Source: Thermococcus sp. EP1 (GTDB lineage: Archaea > Methanobacteriota_B > Thermococci > Thermococcales > Thermococcaceae). From it: 64,000 bases of DNA. The notes beneath the pieces are model-generated. The model made no database searches and was not told the origin of the DNA. It saw nothing but the letters and a program-made list of their open reading frames with translations. The DNA lies in assembly GCF_001317345.1 (NCBI RefSeq), contig NZ_JXCG01000003.1, forward strand, positions 124,001-188,000. The letters run 5' to 3'. Numbering within the stretch: position 1 is the first letter of the stretch; each line of letters opens with the position of its first letter. Of the stretch, positions 7,324-8,290 are shown one piece after another. The translations under genes and the position numbers were made by a program.

Positions 7324-7333
7324 CCTTTAAAAA
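7324..7333 (+). promoter_or_regulatory. TATA box for the C/D sRNA and/or CDF gene
   Basis: CCTTTAAAAA is placed about 25 nt before the predicted 5' end of the sRNA at ~7352, the normal archaeal spacing. The same promoter could read on into the CDF transporter gene at 7430. Confidence 0.5.
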
Positions 7334-7351: not shown

Positions 7352-7412
7352 ACACCCAATGAAGAGTTCAGCCTTACCTGATTCGTGATGAAGGAGTGAC
7401 GGACTGAGGGAT
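7352..7412 (+). ncRNA. C/D box sRNA guiding 16S rRNA 2'-O-methylation
   Basis: Ordered boxes: C ATGAAGA (7359-7365, one mismatch to RUGAUGA), 12-nt guide, D' CTGA (7378-7381), 3-nt spacer, C' GTGATGA (7385-7391), 12-nt guide, D CTGA (7404-7407). CCC before C and GGG after D can form the terminal kink-turn stem. The D guide complements the archaeal 16S sequence CCGUCACUCC (10 nt), placing the methyl on E. coli-numbered U1406 by the N+5 rule. The D' guide complements AAGGCUGAA of 16S, pointing to about G902. Two guides with plausible conserved 16S targets make this a strong call. Confidence 0.88.
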
Positions 7413-7429
7413 CCAATTGTGGTGATATC

Positions 7430-8290
7430 ATGGAAACCATTTACAAGCCCCTAATAGTGAGTATTGTAGGAAATATTGTTCTGGGTATTGTGAAGATTAT
7501 TGTGGGTGTCCTTTATTCAAGTTTGGCTTTGATATCAGATGGGATTCATTCTCTCTCAGATGTGGTGACTAGTATTATAGGATATCTTGGAGTTAAAATT
7601 GCTTCAAAACCGGCAGATCAGAGCCATCCGTTTGGGCATTCGAGATTTGAGTCTCTTTTTGCATTTTTCATGGGCGTGTTGCTATTCTTAGTGGCCTATG
7701 AGATAGGGAGAGACGCTTTGGGGAGAATTATTGAAAGATACGCAATTGAGGTAAATGCTCTTATGATTGGGATTACAATAGTTTCCATAATTTCCAAAGA
7801 AATGATGACTCAGTACTCTCTGAGGGTTGGAAAAAAACTTGGGAATCAGATAGTTATTGCTGATGCATATCACCACCGAAGCGATGCTCTAAGTAGTGTA
7901 GTTGTTTTAGTTGGTCTTTTCCTTCAAAAGTTTGGGATTTCTTATGGGGATTCTCTAGCAGGCATTATCGTAGCATTTTTTATTGCAAAAGTTGCCTTTG
8001 ATATAGTTGTCAAAAATATAAATCACTTGACTGGAGTCTCTCCGCCAGAAGATATTTACAGGAGGATAGAAGAGAAAGTGATGAGTGTTAAGGGAGTTAA
8101 AGGGATGCATGATTTAAGAGCACATTATGTAGGTCCGAGATTGCACGTGGAGGTACATATAGAAGTACCGCCAGAACTCACTCTTAAAGAAGCTCACGAT
8201 ATAAGTGAAGAAGTTAAAAAAAGGATTGAAGAAGTAGAAGAAGTTGAGACTGCCTTTATTCATATAGATATTAAAGGTGTAACGGAGTAG
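7430..8290 (+). CDS. cation diffusion facilitator family metal efflux transporter
   Basis: 286 residues: six transmembrane segments, then a cytoplasmic ferredoxin-like dimerisation domain (ZT_dimer, about residues 205-286, ending HIDIKGVTE). Metal-site motifs are present: SDGIHSLSDV in TM2, the PFGHSRFE loop and YHHRSDALSS in TM5. The HxxxD arrangement in TM5 fits Zn(II)/Fe(II)-type members. It is expected to export divalent metal from the cytoplasm. GGTGAT precedes ATG 7430. The ferritin-like gene follows after 7 nt, suggesting a metal-handling operon. Confidence 0.88.
   Translation: METIYKPLIVSIVGNIVLGIVKIIVGVLYSSLALISDGIHSLSDVVTSIIGYLGVKIASKPADQSHPFGHSRFESLFAFFMGVLLFLVAYEIGRDALGRIIERYAIEVNALMIGITIVSIISKEMMTQYSLRVGKKLGNQIVIADAYHHRSDALSSVVVLVGLFLQKFGISYGDSLAGIIVAFFIAKVAFDIVVKNINHLTGVSPPEDIYRRIEEKVMSVKGVKGMHDLRAHYVGPRLHVEVHIEVPPELTLKEAHDISEEVKKRIEEVEEVETAFIHIDIKGVTE

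Follow-up and report, generated by a model that had tools for sequence, protein, structure and literature searches.

C/D box sRNAs are often processed from the transcripts of neighbouring genes (PMC7994747), and RNA-seq of T. kodakarensis detected 54 C/D sRNAs, with 11 potential snoRNAs lying within 5′-UTRs (PMC4247193). The closest described system to the locus reported here is a family already catalogued in Rfam, sR60 (RF01309). Two further systems bear on it: sR1 (RF01152), a C/D sRNA that neighbours sR60 in other Thermococcales and has one guide on the same h44 strand, and the archaeal mRNA leaders in which kink-turns are bound by L7Ae. In the window, by which we mean the whole stretch of 64,000 nucleotides that was analysed, the interval 7355-7409 (+) is sR60, a double-guide archaeal C/D box sRNA. 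The cmscan match to RF01309 covers model positions 1-55 of 55 with 61 bits (E 1.8e-12), over the gathering cut-off of 50 bits, and a tRNA is the single further Rfam match in the 64 kb. The locus shares its guides and box order with the family, and its guide pair (GGAGTGACGG and TTCAGCCT) is common to other members, Pyrococcus included. It differs from the family in its terminal stem, CCC/GGG instead of CGG/CCG, and in its box C, AUGAAGA, and from its relatives in having no adjoining sR1 and a cation diffusion facilitator (CDF) gene far closer than in most of them.

sR60 is present in 91 of 94 Thermococcales genomes, over the cut-off in 90; elsewhere in the class, 21 genomes of other families gave no match over the cut-off. 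The weak matches in those sister families belong to a different C/D sRNA, with a D guide GAUGGGCGGU centred on C1402, and the five weak second matches examined within Thermococcaceae are other C/D sRNAs with other guides. Our comparative set consists of the 89 sR60 loci recovered, with covariation counted on 52 distinct sequences. Genera are labelled g1 (the window's genus) to g6, g2 being the sister genus of g1; g3 we take to be Pyrococcus. In the literature searched, sR60 was never named alongside Pyrococcus, nor Um1406 alongside archaea. For T. kodakarensis, the circular-RNA table contains nothing at 1626305-1626359, where sR60 lies in a genome that is presumably that of strain KOD1. The features of the locus are as follows.

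7325-7332, +: TATA-like sequence CTTTAAAA, an element of a putative shared promoter; TATA-like hexamers lie upstream in relatives
7355-7409, +: sR60 C/D box sRNA, the RF01309 match
7355-7357, +: 5′ arm of the terminal stem, CCC, pairing with GGG at 7408-7410 directly after box D, with covariation
7359-7365, +: box C, AUGAAGA, read from the sequence; a U5-to-A variant typical of g1 and g2
7366-7377, +: D′ guide spacer GUUCAGCCUUAC; UUCAGCCUU pairs with 16S AAGGCUGAA, with G902 at N+5
7378-7381, +: box D′, CUGA, from sequence and alignment
7385-7391, +: box C′, GUGAUGA, from sequence and alignment
7392-7403, +: D guide spacer AGGAGUGACGGA; GGAGUGACGG pairs with 16S CCGUCACUCC, with U1406 at N+5
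7404-7407, +: box D, CUGA; CTGA in 88 of 89 loci
7430-8290, +: CDF (cation efflux) transporter gene (PF01545, PF16916), a neighbour outside the sRNA

The interval is laid out as CCC-A-AUGAAGA-GUUCAGCCUUAC-CUGA-UUC-GUGAUGA-AGGAGUGACGGA-CUGA-GGG, with boxes C, D′, C′ and D in order and spacers of about 12 nt. A first-pass annotation of this DNA had described four boxes and two 12-nt guides. All four boxes can be read at the positions listed, and the spacers are indeed 12 nt long, but the pairing itself spans only 10 nt (D) and 9 nt (D′). Box C departs from the canonical AUGAUGA at one base; over the 89 loci it reads UGAUGA in 66, UGAAGA in 15 and UGAGGA in 8, position 5 being U, A or G by lineage. 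As kink-turns are generally built, this position would face a U of box D, and an A there would give an A-U pair. The minimum-energy fold of the leader was uninformative (z -0.20), as expected, because energy models miss k-turn RNPs.

The terminal stem, which closes the C/D kink-turn, shows compensatory change between lineages: it is CGG/CCG or a near variant in g3 and g4, CCC/GGG in g1 and g2, and AAA/TTT in g6 and part of g5. Among the 52 distinct sequences, 96.8% of the cells in its three pairs are paired, and two of the pairs occur as GC, CG and AU types with zero unpaired cells. The stem scores 0.502 for covariation, compared with 0.155 in shuffled alignments, and 38 cells are changed on both sides against 9.1 in shuffles, with 0 of 500 shuffles as high in either case; sliding the stem partner lowers the score to 0.215 or less. 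The guide cores are near invariant (TTCAGCCT in 89, TTCAGCCTT in 81 and GGAGTGACGG in 88 of the 89 loci), while the spacer bases beside them vary. A chance origin of the C/D resemblance and the 16S matches in an intergenic region has nothing to recommend it beyond the shortness of the element, and the Rfam E-value, the order-wide conservation, the stem covariation and the guide matches to 16S make it so improbable that we reject it.

Targets were placed by the D/D′+5 rule on 16S rRNA from the organism's own genome, and numbered by alignment to E. coli rrsB. The D guide GGAGUGACGG pairs with CCGUCACUCC over 10 bp, with own U1361 (E. coli U1406) as its predicted target, and the D′ guide UUCAGCCUU pairs with AAGGCUGAA over 9 bp, with own G855 (E. 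coli G902) as its predicted target. Complementarity runs across the D/D′+5 nucleotide for both guides and each match is unique, in agreement with the first-pass proposal of U1406 and a site at about G902. The sequences AAGGCTGAA and CCGTCACTCC occur once each in the organism's 16S, shuffled guides did as well in 6 of 1500 trials (D, 10 bp) and 21 of 1500 (D′, 9 bp), and in 23S the longest contiguous Watson-Crick stretch available to each guide is 6 bp. In the D guide the first position is mismatched (A x C1402); in the D′ guide it is the second (A x C899), which is internal to the D′ duplex. The D′ guide has a weaker alternative of 8 bp at position 965 of the organism's 16S, and in most Pyrococcus the D′ duplex is down to about 8 bp. 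The D′ spacer ends in CCTTGT at 26 of 89 loci, mostly Thermococcus; by inspection, this ending lengthens the duplex at G902 to 11 bp, one of them a wobble, which favours G902.

We propose that L7Ae, Nop5 and fibrillarin would assemble on the C/D and C′/D′ motifs, and that the D guide would direct 2′-O-methylation of 16S U1406 and the D′ guide that of G902. These predicted methylation targets sit in h44, at the decoding site, and in h27 respectively. The yeast 18S nucleotide Gm1126 is presumably the equivalent of G902, by a count along the yeast sequence from the 1191 = 966 anchor of PMC7005279. Its guide is snR41 (PMC5199042), which would apparently serve the same methylation site as sR60, homology not being implied; the second target of snR41, Am541, differs from that of sR60.

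A single sRNA connecting the decoding centre and the 900 region would fit the published idea of double-guide chaperones (PMC4644070), and sR60 could act mainly as a folding chaperone that keeps the h27 and h44 strands apart, with one or both sites little methylated. Its targets have the pattern proposed for chaperone sRNAs in that work, being far apart in sequence and close in the folded 30S, and box D′ is degenerate (CCGA) in 25 of 89 loci. Moreover, the cryo-EM/LC-MS list for the P. abyssi 30S gives Cm at E. coli position 1402 and neither Um1406 nor Gm902 (PMC7005279). The list thereby also counts against guided methylation of the two sites, but it is probably incomplete, since just two plain 2′-O-methyls, Am373 and Cm1376, are named in 16S, plus one ac4Cm (PMC7005279). 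However, boxes D and C′ persist throughout the alignment of the 89 loci, as does the N+5 geometry at the D guide, and chaperone and methylation roles can coexist. We therefore consider a mainly chaperone function unlikely, and favor guided methylation at both sites. Guide predictions in seven other archaea are sparse in h44 and dense in the h3/h18/h27 region (PMC4644070), and PMC7758197 mentions the deposition of RiboMeth-seq data for P. furiosus.

The relation to sR1 separates this genome from most of the order. In g3, sR1 ends 12-39 nt ahead of sR60 box C, and across g3 to g6 it lies upstream within the flank in 72 of 73 loci (L003, L005, L063, L085 and L089 among them) and within 44 nt in 65, whereas it is upstream of sR60 in 0 of 16 loci of g1 and g2. 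The window's genome has a probable sR1 unlinked to sR60, about 19.5 kb away on the opposite strand (L110, G000:C3:111791-111846), at 36.7 bits and so below the RF01152 cut-off of 45 bits. The guides of sR1 differ from those of sR60: the D′ guide, GAUGGGCG, forms a duplex around C1402 that includes one G-U pair, and the D guide, UAGGUGAUCG, pairs over 9 nt with the anti-Shine-Dalgarno region in the 3′ tail of 16S, CGAUCACCU. C1402 is Cm in the P. abyssi 30S (Cm1376, PMC7005279), so the same rule has, at one site in this region, predicted a nucleotide that is truly modified. The predicted duplexes of sR1 (about 1400-1409) and of the sR60 D guide (1403-1412) overlap, from which we infer that their binding should be mutually exclusive. 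One possible, if rather doubtful, hypothesis is that sR1 and sR60 are an ancient tandem pair that binds pre-16S in turn and, with the other guide of sR1 on the 16S 3′ tail and that of sR60 on h27, times maturation of the decoding centre; in the window's branch the pair would have been split and sR60 linked to the expression of a metal-efflux gene. Separately, other families of the same class (L102-L109) have a conserved C/D sRNA, distinct from both sR60 and sR1, in which the D guide, AGAUGGGCGGU, is centred on C1402 and the D′ guide has CGACAGCGU at its end.

The gene downstream of sR60 is identified as a cation diffusion facilitator by PF01545 (E 2.4e-48) and PF16916 (ZT_dimer, E 4e-22), with its ATG at 7430, and tblastn finds CDF as the next gene after sR60 in 76 of 89 loci. 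The intervening gap depends on lineage. From box D to the CDF start it measures 9-22 nt in 16/16 loci of g1 and g2, and at none of these 16 does it hold a T-run or a TATA-like hexamer. The g4 gap usually measures 96-137 nt; 37 of 57 loci there have a T-run no more than 30 nt away, often 11-12 nt past box D, and many have a TATA-like hexamer about 40 nt ahead of the CDF ATG. Upstream of sR60, 78 of the 80 loci outside g3 have a TATA-like hexamer that starts about 28-34 nt ahead of box C, one of the two exceptions being cut by a contig end; in the window, CTTTAAAA ends 26 nt before box C. Most Thermococcus have sR60 with its own TATA box and T-run. This layout makes sRNA and CDF look separate in most g4 and one unit in g1 and g2, where a shared promoter is likely because the gap is so short and lacks a terminator or second promoter. 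Comparably short gaps occur twice in g3 (13-14 nt) and twice in g4 (20 nt), and the tight arrangement is mainly a property of g1 and g2, not general in the order. The first-pass suggestions that the sRNA lies in the leader of a metal transporter gene and may share its promoter are both supported for these two genera.

Transcription would most likely begin a few nucleotides upstream of sR60, from the TATA promoter; CDF, 22 nt behind sR60 in g1, would probably use the same promoter, and mature sR60 would be cut or trimmed out of the CDF mRNA leader. We judge the account as a whole, comprising sR60, RNP assembly, methylation of U1406 and G902, a transcript shared with CDF and its processing, to be highly probable. 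The sequence comparisons show the identity and anatomy of sR60, its complementarity to the targets, its conservation and its synteny, and from these we infer the RNP, the methylation, the common transcript and the processing. Several relatives (L033, L034, L036, L045, L046) have no separate Shine-Dalgarno (GGUGAU) between sR60 and the CDF start, a stretch that in the window is 7408-7429, so the 3′ end of sR60 (GAGGGG) may act as a weak Shine-Dalgarno for CDF, in which case excision of the sRNA would take it away. Directly behind CDF in the window's genus lies a rubrerythrin-family gene (PF02915; 8298-8738, +), and the two genes possibly form a metal or oxidative-stress operon.

Such closeness to CDF in the two nearest genera also raises the reading of the sR60 element as a cis-acting CDF leader, in which a k-turn bound by L7Ae tunes translation of the pump and there is no guide role. 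L7Ae does regulate mRNAs via 5′ UTR k-turns (PMC5539422), and those leaders resemble sR60 in placing a k-turn-forming motif in a (probable) mRNA 5′ leader. Yet the most conserved part of the element is its guides, which are complementary to 16S, its spacing from CDF ranges from 9 to 137 nt with a T-run between the two in most Thermococcus, and an intact sR60 is found even where CDF has decayed to a remnant or is missing, its conservation not being tied to the downstream gene. Variable spacing and CDF loss lead us to reject an element that is a CDF leader only, which we regard as very unlikely. While the L7Ae-bound leaders are cis regulators (PMC5539422), sR60 appears from its sequence to be a conserved trans-acting guide with targets of its own.

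CDF has been eroded or lost behind an intact sR60 in several lineages. As regards INDEPENDENCE from CDF, there is no intact CDF start behind sR60 in 13 of 89 loci. CDF fragments follow an intact sR60 at L074, L079 and L081 (tblastn) and at L018 and L091 (sequence reading), pointing to repeated CDF decay or deletion in g4, and others of the 13 loci carry a different gene behind sR60. C/D sRNAs overlapping a 5′ end lower transcription of the gene, and pseudogenes have been suggested as a possible result (PMC7994747), an idea that the pattern of CDF loss would fit. At one locus where CDF is missing (L002, genome G006), SscA RNA (RF00063) and sR44 lie near sR60.

As an identification, the locus adds little: the finding is real and mostly ordinary, a further member of a known family. 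Of greater interest are the overlap of the sR1 and sR60 targets and the lineage-specific tie to CDF. sR60 presents a guide that is almost invariant across the order while its promoter, terminator and neighbours have been rearranged. The comparative picture, with an invariant guide, a decaying neighbour gene and adjacent guides that overlap in the decoding site, is slightly more useful than the identification itself, and makes the sR60 locus a simple test case for the order in which guide RNAs act and for sRNA-mRNA co-transcription.
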